Positions 964 to 9,573 of a stretch of 15,420 nucleotides of DNA are shown here, piece after piece. The notes below the pieces were generated by a model, which was not told the DNA's origin, did no database searches, and saw only the letters and a program-made list of their open reading frames with translations. The position numbers and the translations under genes are program-made. Numbering within the stretch: position 1 is the stretch's first letter; each line of letters opens with the position of its first letter. The DNA is taken from positions 4,497 through 19,916 of the forward strand of contig DAJC01000036.1 of NCBI GenBank assembly GCA_002498845.1, written 5' to 3'. Origin of the DNA: Thermoplasmatales archaeon UBA509 (GTDB taxonomy: Archaea; Thermoplasmatota; Thermoplasmata; Thermoplasmatales; Thermoplasmataceae).

Positions 964-2001
964 TCAAGGTAACCTGTATCTGAGGATGGCGCAATAGCCC
1001 CCGAAATTACTCACTATCCTGCCAGGATCAGTTCCTGTCCCTATTATGTGCACCCTTGTACCATAGTTTCTGGACACTTCCAGAAGCTTCCTGCCCTCAG
1101 GGGTCCTGAATTTTTCCTCAGAAACAATAAGTGTATCCACGGCGCCAGCTTCAAGTGCTTTCAGAACATCTTCGTATCCATATGTTCCAAGGCCGTCTGT
1201 CCCAACATGCCTCAGAAAGCTCTCCACGAGTCTGGAATCTCCAGAAATTCTCAGGTCCCTGAAAATGGCATCAGCCTCGGGAGTATTCAGGAATTCCCAG
1301 ACAGCGCCTGCATCTGATCTGTTGGTGGGGTATGTCACCACCCGGAATCCTGTTCCGCCGTATGTTCTGAATGCGTTTACTATCTTTTCTCTGGTGAATC
1401 CTGGTCCAAGGACAATTATGGTGCTTCCTTCTGGCAGCATCCTGCGGCATGACTCAACAATTTCCCTGTGAAAATCCTGTTCAGAGAAATTACTTTCGTA
1501 AGCTTTGCCTGTGAGATGTGAATCGATCTTGCCTATGCTCTGTATCCCGTATGACTTCAGCATAAGAATCCATGCGGTCTCATCATCTGCGGCGATGAAA
1601 TAGAATTTCTGTGAAAACTTATTATCCAGGGCCTCAGCCAGGAGTTCACGCTGCTGTTCCAGCCACTGCTGCTTCTTGAGTTCGAAGTTGTCGCCGGGTG
1701 ATATATTGAATGACTGATGGTCTCCAATGATGTCCTCAGGTCCTTCCCTTATGGTGCCAAGAACCTTCAGATTTCCAGAAAAATCCTGGAATTCAACGCT
1801 CTCAGCAACTATGGATGCGGTGACAGGTTTTCGCGGGGATTCCTTGGATCTGTTCATGTCCTGCTGCTTCTCCACCCTTCTCAGGGTTGTCATCCTGACC
1901 ATGTCTCCAGGATTTATGAGGTTCTTCAGATACCATAAATCATCATCGGAATCTACGTGTACCGTAATCCATTCAGAATCCTTCTTTTCCGTGATCCTCA
2001 T
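964..2001 (-). CDS. pelA: Pelota / Dom34 ribosome rescue factor
   Basis: Archaeal Pelota, 345 residues, the normal length. It is an eRF1-like factor without the GGQ motif that enters the empty A site of stalled ribosomes with its GTPase partner (archaeal aEF1-alpha) and, with ABCE1, splits the subunits. Domain 1 (residues 1-125, Sm-like) carries the conserved DDLWYLKNLINPGD and ESPRKPVT segments and the VEFQDFSGNLKVLG strand pair. The central domain (about 130-260) has the conserved PGF (200-202). The C-terminal L7Ae-like domain (about 262-345) has the A-G-AVDTLIVSEE segment. The start overlaps the stop of the upstream nuclease-like gene as ATGA (2001-1998), so translation is probably coupled. 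It is the last gene of the ubiX - Mut7-C - pelA operon. Confidence 0.95.
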   Translation of the reverse strand: MRITEKKDSEWITVHVDSDDDLWYLKNLINPGDMVRMTTLRRVEKQQDMNRSKESPRKPVTASIVAESVEFQDFSGNLKVLGTIREGPEDIIGDHQSFNISPGDNFELKKQQWLEQQRELLAEALDNKFSQKFYFIAADDETAWILMLKSYGIQSIGKIDSHLTGKAYESNFSEQDFHREIVESCRRMLPEGSTIIVLGPGFTREKIVNAFRTYGGTGFRVVTYPTNRSDAGAVWEFLNTPEADAIFRDLRISGDSRLVESFLRHVGTDGLGTYGYEDVLKALEAGAVDTLIVSEEKFRTPEGRKLLEVSRNYGTRVHIIGTGTDPGRIVSNFGGYCAILRYRLP

Positions 2002-2465
2002 CTTTCTTTCTCCGCCGTGCCATCAACTATGGACCGGATCTCATTCTTTATTGATGCATAGTGAGTCCCCTCCCAGTAGATCTTTCCGCAGTGAGTGCAA
2101 ATGTAAACCCTGTTCTGCAACTTCCTGACCCCGGGTGGCAGACTTGCCATGATGGCTGGGTCATCAGTGACCCTGAGCAGACCGTTACAGAGTGGACATC
2201 TTGTGAAATAAAGGGATTCATCAGGCGGAAATCTTGCCACGAATTCTCTGAGCTGTTCCACATGCCTGTCAGATTTGATATATATGGAATTTCTGTACCT
2301 TACGGAAAGTTCCCTGTCCCTTGTTATTAGGATCAAATCTTCCCTTGAACATGTCTCAATGATTGAATCATCCGCCATGTCAGAGGTTGCATACCCGACA
2401 TCATAGCCCATCAGGCGTAACCACCTGCACATCTTCCCCAGCATGCTGTCAGCGAAGAATCTCAT
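1998..2465 (-). CDS. Mut7-C domain (PIN-like) protein with zinc ribbon
   Basis: The N-terminal half is a Mut7-C domain (PF01927), a PIN-like fold regarded as an RNase domain. It has F-ADSMLGKMCRWLRLMGYD at residues 4-22, ADD at 31-33 and the LITRDREL segment at 46-53, whose acidic residues (D6, D32/D33, D50) are likely metal ligands. The C-terminal half has two CxxC pairs, CPLC (90-93) and CTHC (123-126), followed by GKIYWEGTH, forming the zinc ribbon usual in this family. I place the start at 2465 because family members begin at M-R-F-x-ADSMLGK and this leaves 1 nt after the ubiX stop (TGA-A-ATG). A start at 2498 would add 11 residues and overlap ubiX by 32 nt. Its stop overlaps the pelA start, suggesting a link to RNA turnover or ribosome rescue, which is inference. 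The substrate is unknown. Confidence 0.88.
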   Translation of the reverse strand: MRFFADSMLGKMCRWLRLMGYDVGYATSDMADDSIIETCSREDLILITRDRELSVRYRNSIYIKSDRHVEQLREFVARFPPDESLYFTRCPLCNGLLRVTDDPAIMASLPPGVRKLQNRVYICTHCGKIYWEGTHYASIKNEIRSIVDGTAEKER

Positions 2466-2466
2466 T

Positions 2467-3030
2467 TCAGTAGTCTTTCCATCGTCCTGACATATCATTG
2501 TCGATGCCCATCAGATCCAGAACCCGAGATACAACAAAATTCACCATGTCACCAGCAGTCTCAGGCCTTGTGTAATAACCTGGCATTGCAGGAGCCACAA
2601 TCACTCCGTTTGTCGACAGCTTCAGCATGTTTTCAATGTAAATGGAGCTCAGTGGCATCTCTCTTGGTACAATCACCATCCTCCTACGCTCCTTCATGGA
2701 TACTGCAGCAATCCGTGTGATGAGAGTGTCAGCCATGCCGGTAGCCATCCTTGCAAGGGTGGTGTTGGAGCAGGGAATTATGACAAAACTCCTGAACCTG
2801 AAGGATCCGGAACTCACCGGTGCAGCAAGGTCAGAATCATCATAAACATGTTCAGCCAGTTTAGAAAAGTCCTCCAGAGTCAGGTCTGTCTCAGCGGTCA
2901 TGACCCTTTTCGCACCATCAGAAATGATCAGGTGGCGTTCAAAATTCTTAAGCGATTCAAGGAGCCTGAACGCAAGAACAGTTCCTGAAGCTCCTGTTAC
3001 GCCCACAACTATCCTATTGTCTCCCTTCAA
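2467..3030 (-). CDS. ubiX: UbiX-like flavin prenyltransferase
   Basis: A UbiX/Pad1-type flavoprotein of 187 residues, the normal size. The family attaches a dimethylallyl group to FMN to make prenylated FMN, the cofactor of UbiD-type decarboxylases. Visible motifs are GVTGASG at residues 10-16 (flavin phosphate site), PCSNTTLARMATG in the middle, KERRRMVIVPREMPLS, and PAMPGYYTRPET. The family segment usually reads TRAADVxLKERR; here it is TRIAAVSMKERR, a mild variation. No UbiD partner lies in the window, so the downstream pathway (quinone synthesis or another decarboxylation) cannot be told. The gene is first in an operon with the Mut7-C gene and pelA; a TATA-like box lies about 32 nt upstream of the start. 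Confidence 0.92.
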   Translation of the reverse strand: MKGDNRIVVGVTGASGTVLAFRLLESLKNFERHLIISDGAKRVMTAETDLTLEDFSKLAEHVYDDSDLAAPVSSGSFRFRSFVIIPCSNTTLARMATGMADTLITRIAAVSMKERRRMVIVPREMPLSSIYIENMLKLSTNGVIVAPAMPGYYTRPETAGDMVNFVVSRVLDLMGIDNDMSGRWKDY

Positions 3031-3074: not shown

Positions 3075-3650
3075 TCAGCGCTTTCTGTTAAAGTAGAAGT
3101 ACAGTACGAAGGTTGCGGCGAATATTGCCACGATTATCGCTGCATCCCTGTAATCGTCATAAAGACTGACAACCCTGGGCTTGGACCACGAAAATCCAGG
3201 ATAAGCACCGGAATCAAGGGCTTTGATGTTTGACAGGTGGCTTCCGCCGCTGGTCACAAGGGACTGCTGGTTCTCAGTCATCTTGAATGCTATGGTGAAG
3301 TTCTGGACACTGGGAAAACCAATTGAAGACAGCGCAGTTATAACATCGAGTCCGTATGGGTTGAGGCCTGTGTATGACAGATCGAACACTATGAGGTCCT
3401 GCGTTGAATTTGCGCTCCAGTTGTATGTTACGTATGTGCTGTTATCTATTATATCTGCAAAGAATGAGTTCCACTCCGTAGTGCTGATCGTGTAATGGTT
3501 TTCGGTTCCGTTTATATAATAGGTAACTGAGGGCAGACTCGATGGGGGCGGATTCAGTACAGGAGTGCTTCCCATGGCTGATATTGGAGCAACGGCCAGC
3601 ACAAAAACGAATGCCAGAGCCGCTAGTGAAATGGCTGTCTTGTTTTTCAT
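3075..3650 (-). CDS. Small secreted protein with C-terminal membrane anchor
   Basis: A 191-residue protein of unknown function. It has a signal peptide (MKNKTAISLAALAFVFVLAVAPISA, residues 1-25), an extracellular part of about 140 residues with several N-glycosylation sequons (NGT, NST, NWS-like, NST, NFT), and one C-terminal membrane helix (about 168-185, AAIIVAIFAATFVLYFYF) ending in NRKR, a positive cytoplasmic stop. It is therefore probably anchored outside the cell. I start it at 3650 because that Met begins the signal peptide and a TATA-like box at 3682-3693 would place the transcript start near 3661, inside the longer frame that begins at 3698. It follows the giant surface gene by 69 nt in the same direction, so the two may belong together. 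No family recognised. Confidence 0.75.
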   Translation of the reverse strand: MKNKTAISLAALAFVFVLAVAPISAMGSTPVLNPPPSSLPSVTYYINGTENHYTISTTEWNSFFADIIDNSTYVTYNWSANSTQDLIVFDLSYTGLNPYGLDVITALSSIGFPSVQNFTIAFKMTENQQSLVTSGGSHLSNIKALDSGAYPGFSWSKPRVVSLYDDYRDAAIIVAIFAATFVLYFYFNRKR

Positions 3651-3681
3651 GAAATTGAATCCGAAACAGATATGAATTTCT

Positions 3682-3693
3682 CTAAATAAGTTT
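3682..3693 (-). promoter_or_regulatory. TATA-like box for the small surface protein
   Basis: On the minus strand the sequence is aaacttatttag, centred about 38 nt upstream of the ATG at 3650. It lies inside the longer reading frame starting at 3698, which argues for the shorter start. Confidence 0.45.
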
Positions 3694-3719
3694 TTCACTG
3701 CAATTTTCCAGATACGGAT

Positions 3720-6700
3720 TCAGTTTCCTCTTCTTGCCATTGATGGATCCATGGCGTATTTCTGGCCATCAGGATCAGCAAGTATGAGGATTTTCCCACG
3801 ATCTACCAATCTTCTGAGAGCCGATTCCATGGTCTTCTTCCTGATTCTGCCAGCCTTGCCTTTTTTCATAATTTCACGTATGGTTCTGTTTCTCATTTCC
3901 ATTATGATCTCAGCTGCGGCATCCTCATCTGCGCCATAGGCAACCTGCCTGTATGCGACCAATGATACCGGGATCATGGCTACCAGTGCCTCAGGAATGA
4001 AACCGAAAGTGAACACGGTCCTGGTTGTGCTTTTTCCGTGACCGTTAAAATGGACATCAAGGTTCACAGTGTGGTACCCTGGAAGGAGAAAAATGCTCAA
4101 TGAATCTCCTCCATAGGATTCCCCTGATACAGTCCAAGTGTATCTAAGGTTCTGAAGGTCAGTACCATGAACAACTGGATGAAATTCTGCAAAACCTGAT
4201 ATGATGCTGTATGCAATTCCTATGCCTGTGATCTGAGGATAGTAAGTGACGTTTATTCCTCTAATTTCTGTGCTGTTTATGTTTCCACACATGTCTGTGG
4301 CTGTCAGGAATACGCTGTAATTTCCATCGGCATTGAAGTTAATGGTGACATTCCCCCGGCCTGTATATCCAGAATACAGGACTCTTGAATTGCTCATTTT
4401 GATCTCAATGTATGCCGGTACGGCATCCATAACAGAAAATGCCAGTTCAGTGGTGTTTGTGCCTGAAAGATTCATGTCTGCAACTCTCACCGATATTGCT
4501 GGAGGTCGATCATAGCTGGCTACCATGATGTTCTCCCTGGCAGAATTGTTCCAGAGGTTCCTGGCGTAAAACGTCACGTTGTAAGTTGAATTTCCTTCTG
4601 GTAAAGTTATTTCCCCATCTTCGGCAGACTGGATTGCCCACGATCTTCCTCTGCTTATGTTTGCCACGATGGAGATGTTGGCACTGTCCACATCAGGAAA
4701 ATGCAGCACAGTTGAATTTGTGTATATGACAGGCTTCGGGAAGGATGGCACAACCGGAATTGTGTTGTTCACGCTCAATGATAAGTTACGGGATGAAATC
4801 AGGCCGCTACTGCCGATTGCCTCAATATTCATATGATAAGTACCATTCTCGTGGAAAAAGCCACTGCCCTGATCAAGGACAATATTCCAGTTTTTTCCGG
4901 TGACCTCCCACTCTCCAATCACATTGCCACAGTAAATGATGGATGCAGATATCCGTGATGTTACATTGCTTGTTGCGTTGATTGTCATGGTGTTATTGCT
5001 GGAATCACCATAGAATGAAAGTAAACGGGAACCGGATGTGTTCACACTCAACAGAGGTCGGTATGTTTCGATCCCAAAGCTCCTGGAACCAAGGAATGCA
5101 GTTTGACCATCAAGAAGCGTTGCATTGAGCGACAGGACATAATTTCCGTTTGTCAGATTGAGGGTTGTCCAGTTGGTGTCAAGCTGATACGAGAGATTCA
5201 TAGCGGCACCGTGGACATATAGGTCGTAATATGAAACGTTCTCCACTCCTACCCATTGTACAGTTATGTTGCTCCTGCTGTAGTACGTCCCATTTGTTAT
5301 ACCTATGGAGGTGCTGCCTGAAATGCCCTTTATGGTGGTGTAGTTGAACCATCTGGAATGCACTATTCCGAAGCAGTCTGTATAGTTCACCCAGAGAACC
5401 AGTTTCCCCGGGTTGGAGGACACAAACAGCCCGAATGCCAGAGAATTTGTTGTGTACGTTCCACTGTTCCATTGCACGCTTGTTGTGCCATTGCCAGAAG
5501 TGCCAGTTATATTTATTGTAAATCCCTGGGACTGGGCGATGTATGTCCCATTGCCTGGATTCACATATATGACAGGTATCTGGCTGTCAATGGAAACCTC
5601 CTCATACACTGAGGATGAATAACCGGCCATGTTGCTGGCTGTTACAGTGAGCCGGTATGTCCCGGTGGGAAAAAGTGAGGCATCGATTGTGATACTGCCG
5701 TTACTGGCTTTAAGCTCAGTACCGCCAAGGGTCGCATTCAGGCTGTATGTGAGGTTTGAATGCACCGAGTATTCCACGGTAGAATTGTGTGTTATTATTC
5801 CTGCAGGCTCCAGACTTATGCCTATACCATCTGTAGACAGTGGCTCAGCGCTGCTGTAGAATATGTATATGTCGCTACCGGCAGCAAGTGTACCGGCAGA
5901 GGCATTTTCGTCAAGATAGACTCCGGTTATGTTCTGCACAAAAATGTTGCTGGCGATGGCATAGTACGGGCTCAGGAACTCAGCCTGTCCAGAATCCATG
6001 TGCAGTGCAGTGTCTCCGGCCCCTGACCAGGTACTCAGGGATCCGTTGATGATAAGCATCCGGCTGTAATCCTCAGGGTCAAGCATGAATGAATAATGTC
6101 CACTGGTTGTTGCGTTCATCAGAACTTCGTATACGCCATCTGTTTCCCAGGCCAGGCTCGTGTTCACAATATTCCCGTTGAATGTCTGTCCAGGAGCCAT
6201 GGTCATATCCAGTGTTTTATTGAGAATGAAATGAATGGTGTCCCCGGACGAGAGATTGAGATCCATTCCCGTTAGGTTTCCGTGTGACTGGCTCATGGCC
6301 ACAAGTAAGCTGTCTCTACCAAGAGAGATATTGTATGCTGTGGATGTTCCACTTGTGAAATTGATTGCTACCAGCGAGAAGCGGGAAACCATTACAAAGC
6401 TTCCGTGGAGAAAGAAGACTCCAGTGAAATAGGGAAAATGTCCATAGGAGAGTGCACTGGAGACTGAAAGATCTGTCAGGTTAACGGCAATCATGTTCAC
6501 TTCCGTGCTGTTCCCACAGGCAATATATTCCACGTTGCCAGATACCACAGATACAAAGTTTCCTCCGGAGATAGGCTGTACCTGGGTGAGAATACCTGCA
6601 GTCTGGTTTGCGTAATTCCAGTATGAAATAGAAGTTTTGCTGGAGTGCGCAACGAACAGGACATCATTAAGTTCAGGGTCCAGTACCGGGATCGACGCAC

Positions 6701-7493
6701 TTCGAATGTCACCTGTAACATTTCCGGACTGCTGCAATTCGTATGAATAATTTCTGGACTGTAGAGGTGCAAAGCCCGCATCGTGGCTGGTAACATAGAG
6801 TTCGTCCAGAGTGATACTGCAGTTGCTACCGCCGACCAGAAGGCTGAAATTCCCGGGGTGTAGTGTACTGTTGACCGGCACAGTCATGGGGAAATTTCCC
6901 GTCGAGTTGTATCCACTCTCAATTGAAAAGAATATCTTGTTTGGATACAGGCTGTTCCATGACAATTCAACTGTCTGGAACGCGTCAATTGCTGGATCCG
7001 GTCCTACATTTTGAATGGTTTTTCCGTAGATATACTGATGGGAGACGCCATTTTGCTGATCACCGGGCCCAAAAAAGTAGTGGATGATATTGCGGCCGCC
7101 CTGCATTATTGCAAGGTTGTCAATAGTTGTCAGCAGATTATCAGCGTCGTTCCACGAGTAAGTGATTTTCATGCTCTCATTTGATGTCCCGTTGAGGTTT
7201 ATGTAAAAATATTCCGGGCTGGATATGGGTGCGCTTGTATTGATATTGAATCCGGAAACTGGCAATGCGCTACCCTCAACCATGTGTGAATAGGAATTGA
7301 GCGGTGTGTTATTGAAGTTCACCCAGCTTGTGTTTGCAGGATACTGGCCAGAGGGAATCTCCGTGAAGTTATAGAGGCCTGGACTGCCGACGGGAGCTTG
7401 AATATTTGATCCGGATGAAACTTCAGACGTAAATACCGTAATTGGTATTAATAAACTTAATACTATTAATACCATTAATACCTTAAGTAGCAT
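3720..7493 (-). CDS. Giant glycosylatable surface protein with cytoplasmic winged-HTH-like tail
   Basis: A 1257-residue type I membrane protein of unknown role. Residues 1-23 are a signal peptide (MLLKVLMVLIVLSLLIPITV). About 30-250 look like a beta-sandwich (LamG-like ending in ITLDELYVTS); about 250-480 are beta-rich and could be a propeller. From about 560 to 1155 come Ig-like modules marked by a recurring G-N/T-Y-x-(hydrophobic)-x-(hydrophobic) strand near residues 609, 783, 883, 968, 1053 and 1138, about 85-100 apart in the later part. More than 50 N-x-S/T sequons are present. A membrane segment follows (about 1162-1182, IPEALVAMIPVSLVAYR). The last 70 or so residues are charged: two helices (AAEIIMEMRNRTIREIMKKG, KKTMESALRRLVDRGK) and a hairpin (ILILADPDGQKYAM), as in a winged helix. 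The domain assignments are by eye. It is divergent from gap, with its own TATA-like box. Confidence 0.85.
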   Translation of the reverse strand: MLLKVLMVLIVLSLLIPITVFTSEVSSGSNIQAPVGSPGLYNFTEIPSGQYPANTSWVNFNNTPLNSYSHMVEGSALPVSGFNINTSAPISSPEYFYINLNGTSNESMKITYSWNDADNLLTTIDNLAIMQGGRNIIHYFFGPGDQQNGVSHQYIYGKTIQNVGPDPAIDAFQTVELSWNSLYPNKIFFSIESGYNSTGNFPMTVPVNSTLHPGNFSLLVGGSNCSITLDELYVTSHDAGFAPLQSRNYSYELQQSGNVTGDIRSASIPVLDPELNDVLFVAHSSKTSISYWNYANQTAGILTQVQPISGGNFVSVVSGNVEYIACGNSTEVNMIAVNLTDLSVSSALSYGHFPYFTGVFFLHGSFVMVSRFSLVAINFTSGTSTAYNISLGRDSLLVAMSQSHGNLTGMDLNLSSGDTIHFILNKTLDMTMAPGQTFNGNIVNTSLAWETDGVYEVLMNATTSGHYSFMLDPEDYSRMLIINGSLSTWSGAGDTALHMDSGQAEFLSPYYAIASNIFVQNITGVYLDENASAGTLAAGSDIYIFYSSAEPLSTDGIGISLEPAGIITHNSTVEYSVHSNLTYSLNATLGGTELKASNGSITIDASLFPTGTYRLTVTASNMAGYSSSVYEEVSIDSQIPVIYVNPGNGTYIAQSQGFTINITGTSGNGTTSVQWNSGTYTTNSLAFGLFVSSNPGKLVLWVNYTDCFGIVHSRWFNYTTIKGISGSTSIGITNGTYYSRSNITVQWVGVENVSYYDLYVHGAAMNLSYQLDTNWTTLNLTNGNYVLSLNATLLDGQTAFLGSRSFGIETYRPLLSVNTSGSRLLSFYGDSSNNTMTINATSNVTSRISASIIYCGNVIGEWEVTGKNWNIVLDQGSGFFHENGTYHMNIEAIGSSGLISSRNLSLSVNNTIPVVPSFPKPVIYTNSTVLHFPDVDSANISIVANISRGRSWAIQSAEDGEITLPEGNSTYNVTFYARNLWNNSARENIMVASYDRPPAISVRVADMNLSGTNTTELAFSVMDAVPAYIEIKMSNSRVLYSGYTGRGNVTINFNADGNYSVFLTATDMCGNINSTEIRGINVTYYPQITGIGIAYSIISGFAEFHPVVHGTDLQNLRYTWTVSGESYGGDSLSIFLLPGYHTVNLDVHFNGHGKSTTRTVFTFGFIPEALVAMIPVSLVAYRQVAYGADEDAAAEIIMEMRNRTIREIMKKGKAGRIRKKTMESALRRLVDRGKILILADPDGQKYAMDPSMARRGN
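7445..7480. repeat. Four 9-bp AT-rich tandem units in the signal-peptide codons
   Basis: On the plus strand the units are gtattaata, aacttaata, ctattaata and ccattaata. They encode the leucine/valine-rich signal peptide of the giant surface protein (VLM VLI VLS LLI) and use TTA leucine codons and ATA isoleucine, unlike the CTG/CTC-rich codons of the neighbouring housekeeping genes. The unit core ATTAAT is itself palindromic. Confidence 0.6.
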
Positions 7494-7507
7494 AGATTAA
7501 TAAATCA

Positions 7508-7517
7508 CCCTTAAGGG
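7508..7517. promoter_or_regulatory. Perfect palindrome CCCTTAAGGG near the surface-gene start site
   Basis: A perfect 10-bp palindrome lies between the TATA-like box (7523-7530) and the ATG (7493) of the giant surface gene, close to where its transcript should begin. A second small symmetry, GGATA (7516-7520) with TATCC (7535-7539), frames the TATA box. It could be an operator; the binding protein is unknown. Confidence 0.4.
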
Positions 7518-7521
7518 ATAA

Positions 7522-7532
7522 GTTATATAAAA
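7522..7532 (-). promoter_or_regulatory. TATA-like box for the giant surface protein
   Basis: On the minus strand the sequence is ttttatataac, centred about 34 nt upstream of the ATG at 7493, giving a leader of roughly 5-10 nt. Confidence 0.55.
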
Positions 7533-7559
7533 AATATCCATGAACCACCAGAATTGAAC

Positions 7560-7568
7560 TATTATATG
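7560..7568 (+). promoter_or_regulatory. TATA-like box for the gap - radA operon
   Basis: The sequence tattatatg is centred about 27 nt upstream of the gap ATG (7592), which predicts a leaderless or nearly leaderless message. A GGAG at 7581-7584 could also act as a weak ribosome binding site. Confidence 0.55.
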
Positions 7569-7591
7569 CAGGCAGGCAATGGAGTAATAAC

Positions 7592-8605
7592 ATGATCAAG
7601 GTAGGAATCAATGGTTATGGTACCATCGGCAGGAGGGTCGCTCAGGCAGTGAGATTGCAGAAGGACATGATTGTGACCGGCATAGTGAAAACCAGGCCAG
7701 ATTATGTGGCTGAATCAGCCATGCATGATTTCAGGATATTTGCCGCTGATGCAAAATCGCTGGAATCCTTCAACAGCTCTTCTATCAAGGCATCCGGTAC
7801 GCTGGAAGACCTGATCTCTGATTCAGATATAATTGTGGACGCAACTCCTGAAGGAATGGGCAGGAAGAACATTGAAACCTACAGGAAGAATGGAATTAAG
7901 GCCATCTTCCAGGGAGGCGAGGATCATGAGATTGCCCAGGCCTCATTCAATGCATACTCAAATTTCATGGATTCCTGGGGAAAGGATTACGTGAGGGTTG
8001 TTTCATGCAACACCACTGCCCTTGCCAGGACGGTAACATCTGTTCGGAAATCCTTTGGCGTGAAACATGTCAGTGCCACACTCATAAGAAGGGCCACTGA
8101 CCCCAATGACAGCTCAAAGGGGCCAATAAATGCACTGGAACCAAGCCTGAAATTTCCGTCACACCACGCACCTGATCTGCAGACAGTCATAGGCAATGTT
8201 GATGTTGACACCGTGGCCATAAAGGCACCCACCACACTGATGCATGTCCATGTGGTCAGCATTGATCTGGAAAAGCCAGCGGGTCAGAAGCAGGTCATAG
8301 CTGAGATGGGGAAGTACAGGCGAATCATGCTGGTGTCCGGCAAATCAGGACTCACGTCCACAGCACAGATAATGGATATGGCCAGGGAGATGGGCAGATC
8401 TCGGTCCGATCTTTATGAAATAGCAGTGTGGAAGGAAAGCGTAAACTTAAAAGGTACGAAACTCAATTACATACAGGCAGTTCATCAGGAAAGCGATGTG
8501 GTACCCGAAAATGTGGACGCAATCAGGGCCATGTTCCAGTTAATGGACAGTGAAAAATCCATTTCTGAGACTGATAAGACGCTGAATATTGGAAAAAGGG
8601 TGTAA
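7592..8605 (+). CDS. gap: Archaeal-type glyceraldehyde-3-phosphate dehydrogenase
   Basis: Archaeal (type II) phosphorylating GAPDH, 337 residues, the usual length. It interconverts glyceraldehyde 3-phosphate and 1,3-bisphosphoglycerate with NAD(P). The Rossmann motif [13 protein letters not shown] is at residues 6-18, [13 protein letters not shown] at 81-93, and the catalytic cysteine is Cys139 in SCNTTAL. The His-containing segment [32 protein letters not shown] (about 191-222) matches the family's active-site region. In Thermoplasmatales, which degrade sugars mostly through non-phosphorylating Entner-Doudoroff variants, the enzyme is expected to serve mainly in gluconeogenesis; that is family knowledge. 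radA starts 2 nt after the stop, so the two are co-transcribed. The start is supported by the TATA-like box about 27 nt upstream. Confidence 0.95.
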
Positions 8606-8607
8606 CA

Positions 8608-9573
8608 ATGGTTGAAAGCAAGGAGCAGAAGAAATACACAATAGAGGATTTGCCCGGAGTTGGAGAAGCAACAGCAGAGAAGCTTAGGGAGAATGGTTAC
8701 GATGACATTATGACCATAGCCGTTGCCTCACCCAAGGATCTTTCGGATGTAGCAGGCATCGCTGAGGGAAACGCCTCAAAGATAATAGCCGCTGCCAGAA
8801 AATATGCCGATGTTGGCAATTTCGAAACCGGTGAAGAGATACTTGAGCGCAGGAAGGAAGTGAAGAAACTCACCACAGGCAGCAAGAATCTTGACAACCT
8901 CCTGGGCGGTGGATTCGAGACACAGTCCATAACGGAATTCTTCGGAGAATTTGGATCGGGCAAGACCCAGATCATGCACCAGGCAGCTGTGAATGCAACA
9001 ATGCCTGTGGAAAATGGCGGTTTCGATTCAGATGTCCTGATCATAGATACTGAGAACACATTCAGGCCTGAAAGAATCATTCAGATGTCAAAGTTCAGGG
9101 GGCTTGATCCGGAAAAGGTTCTGAAGCGCATCCATGTCGCAAGGGCGTATAACTCTCATCACCAGATACTCCTTGCTGAGAGGGCATCGGAACTTGCCAA
9201 GGAATTCCCGATCAAGCTTCTCATAGTGGATTCCCTGACATCGCATTTCAGGTCGGAATACATGGGAAGAGGTTCACTGGCTGAGAGGCAGCAGCTTCTT
9301 AACAGGCATATGCATGACCTTCTGAAGTTCGGTACTATATACAACGCAGTTATAACAGTGACAAACCAGGTTTCGGCCAGGCCGGATGTATTCTTTGGCG
9401 ATCCAACTGCGCCAATCGGCGGAAATGTTGTTGGTCACACCGCAACGTTCAGGATATATCTCAGGAAGAGTAAGGGGGGCAAGAGAATTGCCAGGCTCAT
9501 CGATTCGCCCTATCTTCCTGAAGGAGAGACGGTAATCCAGATCTCCGAGGACGGAGTAATTGATGGAGTGTAA
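8608..9573 (+). CDS. radA: RadA recombinase
   Basis: Archaeal RadA (RecA/Rad51 family), 321 residues, normal length, no intein. It forms ATP-dependent filaments on single-stranded DNA and carries out strand exchange in homologous recombination. The N-terminal helix-hairpin-helix DNA-binding domain covers about residues 10-68 ([17 protein letters not shown] ... [16 protein letters not shown]). The ATPase core has Walker A GEFGSGKT at 113-120, Walker B LLIVDS at 204-209, and the ARPD...[24 protein letters not shown] segment containing the L2 region (about 257-285). It lies 2 nt after gap and 13 nt before the HTH/ACT gene, so all three are likely one transcript; pairing with gap may be only positional. 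Confidence 0.97.

Follow-up and report, generated by a model that had tools for sequence, protein, structure and literature searches.

The window analysed here is a stretch of 15,420 nucleotides from Thermoplasmatales archaeon UBA509 (assembly GCA_002498845.1, contig DAJC01000036.1, positions 4,497 to 19,916). On its reverse strand it carries a gene for a giant surface protein of 1257 residues (3720–7493, stop codon included), and all features of this protein given below lie on the same strand. A signal-like hydrophobic segment at residues 2–20 (7434–7490; hydropathy 2.73, with a median of 2.51 in homologues that include the N-terminus) is followed by a large ectodomain (residues 22–1162; 4008–7430), a transmembrane helix (residues 1163–1181; 3951–4007) and a basic, charged tail of 75 residues (1183–1257). 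The ectodomain is rich in N-glycosylation sequons and poor in lysine and arginine, and contains Ig/PKD-like stretches in which Pfam Big_13 and PKD matches stay below cut-off. Its AlphaFold2 model is all-beta but of low confidence (mean pLDDT 57.7, pTM 0.30). The top Foldseek rows for it (Sevenless, ROS1 and others) were set aside at TM ≈0.1, and all-beta alone was retained. The tail holds 17 K/R and 11 D/E in its 75 residues, compared with 38 K/R and 81 D/E in the first 1162 residues. A preliminary description of this DNA had reported a 1257-residue surface protein with a charged tail behind a hydrophobic segment, and reading frame, segment and quoted peptides were all located as stated: nucleotides 3745–4012 encode residues 1161–1250, and the peptides quoted from the tail lie at residues 1193–1212, 1219–1234 and 1235–1248 (nucleotides 3750–3917). 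The architecture, its conservation across the family, the predicted fold and the topology statistics were all obtained by computation.

Topology was evaluated over 28 homologues from related loci (L002–L027, L030 and L031; omitted were L001, a shorter copy of the window's locus, L028, which lacks the end, and L029). The strongest hydropathy in the region 1155–1190 had a median of 1.98 and a minimum of 1.30, so that at least one transmembrane region is present throughout. In the AlphaFold2 model a helix spans residues 1167–1199, with low confidence in its membrane part. The preliminary description had called this segment the only internal hydrophobic one. It is the only one kept over the family, but residues 359–377 are nearly as hydrophobic in the window's protein (1.75 versus 1.82), the corresponding values in the close relative L003 being 1.90 and 1.63. 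A second membrane segment at 359–377 was rejected, as median hydropathy there is 0.73 (26 of the 28 homologues have the region) versus 1.98 (n = 28) at 1163–1181. Across the membrane helix, the median K+R content rises from 4.6% in the ectodomain to 22.4% in the tail, while the median number of sequons per 100 residues drops from 5.3 to 0; a single sequon, N1202, is present in the tail of the window's protein. The positive-inside rule is an established basis for placing a basic tail in the cytoplasm. Given these two shifts and the N-terminal signal-like segment, placement of the tail on the cytoplasmic side of a single membrane helix is well supported from composition and hydropathy, and the ectodomain is probably N-glycosylated.

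The tail was modelled by AlphaFold2 as a canonical winged helix-turn-helix (wHTH; pLDDT 87–91, built from eight sequences only), with the element order H1-S1-H2-H3-S2-S3 that is usual for this fold. The cytoplasmic part of helix 1 covers residues 1189–1199 (3897–3929; its start at D1189 was chosen from conservation). Helix 2 covers residues 1205–1214 (3852–3881) and helix 3, in the position of a recognition helix, residues 1219–1231 (3801–3839), both placed by the model and by alignment columns. The wing (3750–3788), placed by the model and by conservation, consists of strands 1236–1239 and 1245–1248 around a D-P-D-G turn at 1240–1243 (3765–3776). The resemblance to a winged helix noted in the preliminary description was thus borne out by structure prediction and fold search, and the topology statistics place this domain inside the cell; neither of the two outcomes named there as refuting the idea, a confident model lacking the wHTH fold or a tail outside the cell, was obtained. 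Its finer reading as helix, helix and hairpin needs amending: a helix and the hairpin are present, but AAEIIMEMRNRTIREIMKKG is not one helix and comprises the end of helix 1 (to 1199), a short strand (1203–1204) and helix 2 (1205–1214).

Is the fold assignment itself secure? The tail could instead be a simple helical anchor, and the profile matches, all sub-threshold, and the Foldseek matches, all above E = 0.001, would allow for this. However, high pLDDT and the full element order were reached from merely eight sequences, the hydrophobic and glycine pattern is kept in the 28 homologues, and profile matches to MarR were obtained. Moreover, profile-profile comparison of the tail with the DUF7343 winged helix gave a score of 23.0 (probability 39.7%), exceeding all 20 column-shuffled controls (6.4–14.0). 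A winged-helix fold of the tail is therefore supported at the level of models and profiles, and a wrong assignment appears very improbable.

Next we investigated how widely this architecture is distributed. A search with the whole protein gave matches in 35 of 61 genomes, among them 34 of the 37 from the same family as the window's genome (f1, which includes Thermoplasma volcanium); the one remaining match lies in another family and takes in part of the ectodomain only. Matches extended into the tail in 32/37 f1 genomes, and a hidden Markov model (HMM) of the tail added one more (G021); the four without a visible tail (G011, G025, G028 and G033) are all 50–84% complete. Strict single copy is not claimed, since in G034 the ectodomain is matched a second time, close to the end of a contig, and the matches in G016 and G032 cross one TAA. 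The tail HMM was then used on six-frame translations of 200 genomes drawn from the class; the tail alone was searched in such translations, with no separate protein-database search. In each of the 27 f1 genomes of this set it matched once at E ≤ 1.3e-12, the open frames concerned being 515–1292 aa long. Among the 173 remaining genomes of the class there was no strong match; 40 had weak matches only (best 3.6e-6) and 133 had none at E ≤ 0.01. A profile search of a protein database yielded eight proteins, five of them close relatives and three others with 22–32% query coverage and C-termini that look different. The orthologue in the cultured T. volcanium GSS1 is annotated as hypothetical protein, and eight named loci among the relatives belong to Thermoplasmata or Thermoplasmatota metagenome-assembled genomes.

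The tail alignment of the 28 homologues is almost gap-free, beyond what chance would give, the most distant member of a compared subset being 18% identical overall. In the wing, D1240 is kept in 27/28 and G1243 in 24/28. Tail/ectodomain similarity to L003 through L008 was 87/86, 80/76, 72/66, 37/32, 37/27 and 30/24%. As the tail's similarity equals or slightly exceeds that of the ectodomain, it is a constrained part of the protein and not a drifting end.

The nature of the related domains bears on what the tail may do. Outside the family, the best matches of the tail HMM were MarR proteins (open frames of 147–156 aa, confirmed by Pfam), in an alignment that takes in H2, H3 and the beginning of the wing. 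MarR proteins are soluble and have dimerisation helices, whereas the window's tail shows none; BlaI/MecI (Penicillinase_R) proteins, too, are soluble repressors, unlike the membrane-bound giant. Among the Foldseek matches listed for the tail model, 44/50 were regulators or DNA-binding proteins, none at E ≤ 0.001. Lysine or arginine occupies helix 2 positions 1206, 1210, 1213 and 1214 in 23, 22, 24 and 21 of the 28 homologues, and helix 3 positions 1219, 1220, 1223 and 1224 in 18, 14, 17 and 16; judged from the hydrophobic pattern, these positions would be exposed. The MarR matches and the basic character of the two helices across the family lend indirect support to the interpretation given in the preliminary description. 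Neither the window's protein nor its tail passes the cut-off of any Pfam model, DNA-binding ones included; the MarR and MarR_2 cut-offs were not passed either, the window's tail having no MarR match and MarR_2 matching 3/26 family tails (best E 0.0071). Cullin winged helices, which bind protein, had the highest VIA scores. Against DNA binding, the D-P-D-G wing turn is acidic, yet this is not decisive because the MarR matches bear a similar DP(D/N)D wing motif.

The giant gene is separated from a divergent GAPDH-like gene by a spacer of 98 bp (7494–7591), in which the preliminary description had seen a palindrome as a natural first target of the tail. The spacer does hold one perfect 10-bp palindrome, CCCTTAAGGG, at 7508–7517. 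As an operator it was rejected: when the spacer was shuffled 5000 times by mononucleotide, 10.5% of the shuffles contained at least one perfect 10-bp palindrome, and the palindrome decays in L003–L006, where a TATA-like block stays. No conserved operator was seen in the giant's own promoter among the relatives compared. Within the start of the gene itself, two direct 18-nt AT-rich copies (TATTAATA...) lie inside the first codons (7446–7481), and positions 7443–7453 and 7464–7474 form a perfect inverted repeat of 11 nt.

DNA binding and gene regulation by the tail are what we infer from these data. If the giant were an envelope glycoprotein with a tail that holds the chromosome at the membrane regardless of sequence, as an organiser and not a regulator, this would also account for the basic helices 2 and 3 with other exposed residues variable, and for the lack of a conserved operator in the giant's own promoter; we consider this improbable.

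We then compared the protein with known membrane-bound regulators. Transmembrane transcription regulators (TTRs) of the ToxR and TcpP type are single polypeptides that carry an HTH domain inside the cell, a portion outside it and a membrane helix, the single-pass form being the commonest; the accessible parts of a survey count 50,302 of them, in 367 of 404 archaeal species and with about 56% single-pass (PMC10269533). The giant shares this plan, with a predicted wHTH that the topology statistics place on the cytoplasmic side, a fold that does not by itself prove binding. It differs in its C-terminal HTH, its ectodomain of ~1140 aa and the want of a DNA-binding Pfam model above cut-off. The survey, as far as its accessible parts describe, recognises DNA-binding domains by Pfam profile (PMC10269533). 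Because no such model reaches cut-off, we call the giant TTR-like and not a member, and it would probably escape a survey that relies on Pfam. ArnR and ArnR1 of Sulfolobus acidocaldarius are likewise membrane-bound one-component HTH regulators of an acidophilic archaeon, and ArnR has been studied biochemically; in the portions available, however, ArnR is described with an N-terminal HTH, a putative HAMP domain, a sensing domain and two C-terminal membrane helices, and no giant ectodomain (PMC6396743). The giant departs from this layout, having its HTH at the C-terminus and, apart from the signal-like segment, a single conserved membrane helix. Closer to home, DUF7343 (PF24034) proteins of Thermoplasmata are also membrane proteins with a C-terminal wHTH, but the 12 compared are small (159–245 aa between stop codons), each has two hydrophobic segments and their wing reads RxGxTN, unlike the giant. 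In the window's own genome PF24034 (cut-off 27.6 bits) had three matches at E ≤ 0.001, none of them at the giant. A 165-aa open reading frame (ORF) of the same genome (locus L098, 1201–1695, forward strand), with two hydrophobic segments and a C-terminal DUF7343 winged helix, is a candidate small membrane-tethered regulator. The layout had been called uncommon for an archaeal surface protein: this is true of the giant ectodomain and does not extend to membrane-tethered HTH regulators, which occur in 367/404 archaeal species according to the parts of the survey at hand (PMC10269533) and, in small form, in the same genome. No description of a giant ectodomain joined to a wHTH was found among the titles and abstract openings covered, which took in few subscription papers; the available passages of PMC7285479, PMC5498576, PMC10354927, PMC5155288, PMC8345856 and PMC12448462 are also without it.

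With moderate confidence, we regard the giant as a type I membrane protein that operates in the manner of a single-pass TTR. Its very large beta-rich ectodomain would stand outside, joined by one helix through the membrane to a MarR/BlaI-like winged helix directly beneath it. The ectodomain may sense a cue at the level of the envelope (surface contact, polymer, glycan or pH) that alters clustering or conformation through the membrane helix; two tails, seemingly devoid of dimerisation helices of their own, would thereby be paired or separated on DNA and would switch genes from their position at the membrane, those for the envelope being possible targets.

Alternatively, the giant may be a structural part of an exterior protein layer like the one replacing the S-layer in Thermoplasmatales, its wHTH serving only to anchor it on the cytoplasmic side, by binding to a protein partner or to acidic lipid head groups, with no role in gene regulation. 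Available passages on Cuniculiplasma divulgatum and Oxyplasma meridianum describe both as lacking an S-layer lattice, and cryo-tomography of these genera revealed an exterior protein layer of ~20 nm whose protein has not been identified (PMC12448462). A structural role would also suit the sequon-rich ectodomain, the tail match in 27/27 f1 genomes, the top VIA scores of the protein-binding cullin domains and the basic residues beside the membrane, which could bind lipid. Yet a folded wHTH exceeds the needs of an anchor, for which short basic ends suffice in the neighbouring protein p207 and in a 1080-aa protein adjoining p207 at another locus (both below), and the best tail matches outside the family are MarR regulators. 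We therefore view a purely structural role as doubtful, if a serious contender. The two roles could coincide. In that case, which we hold to be unlikely, the exterior layer of Thermoplasmatales would include a glycoprotein present throughout the family that doubles as a membrane-tethered transcription regulator, or would be sensed by it. If it were true, part of the coat of a wall-less acidophile would read its own state and write it directly to the chromosome across one helix.

The principle of a membrane regulator is known. What is new is the architecture and its constancy in 27/27 f1 genomes, namely a predicted wHTH joined to an ectodomain rich in sequons that measures several hundred to ~1140 residues, the ectodomain having been aligned in the 28 homologues and not in each of these 27 genomes. 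The giant is a candidate part, or sensor, of an exterior layer such as that reported, in the passages available, for Cuniculiplasma and Oxyplasma (PMC12448462), a testable case of a single polypeptide linking cell exterior to chromosome, and a hint that some membrane regulators go unnoticed in censuses built on Pfam.

The giant gene is flanked by a divergent GAPDH-RadA pair on one side and by genes for p207, UbiX, Mut7-C and pelota on the other, an arrangement that recurs in many of the relatives' loci (names were given by recognition; Flavoprotein, Mut7-C and eRF1 domains were found by Pfam). The downstream neighbour p207 (3075–3650, or 3075–3698 with a GTG start; reverse strand) encodes a small membrane protein of 191–207 residues, conserved better than the giant and without Pfam match. 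It has a signal-like and a C-terminal hydrophobic segment, directly after which it ends in NRKR. In 23/29 loci p207 was the next downstream match on the same strand; it was on the opposite strand in two and not found in four, three of which have a flank of only ~1.5 kb. All 27 f1 genomes have one p207 match; in three (G013, G029 and G154) it shares the giant's contig but lies at a distance, and in seven more it is on another contig. Two further families of the order contribute six genomes that have p207 but no strong match to the tail HMM. An obligate, ToxS-like partnership was rejected, as p207 is unlinked in several genera and present without a strong tail match. Being also found at a distance from the giant, and where the giant is lacking, p207 may be a co-component, optional at most, and the linkage may be ordinary synteny. 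In five 17-kb stretches beside p207 from families f4 and f5 (L085–L089), our script flagged no ORF with the giant's layout. At locus L094, p207 adjoins a 1080-aa ORF (6333–9572, forward strand) with 42 sequons, a C-terminal hydrophobic segment and a short basic tail; the giant of this genome (G022) sits on another contig. The pelota-like and Mut7-C genes (964–2498, reverse strand) overlap by four bases and lie near the giant in many relatives.
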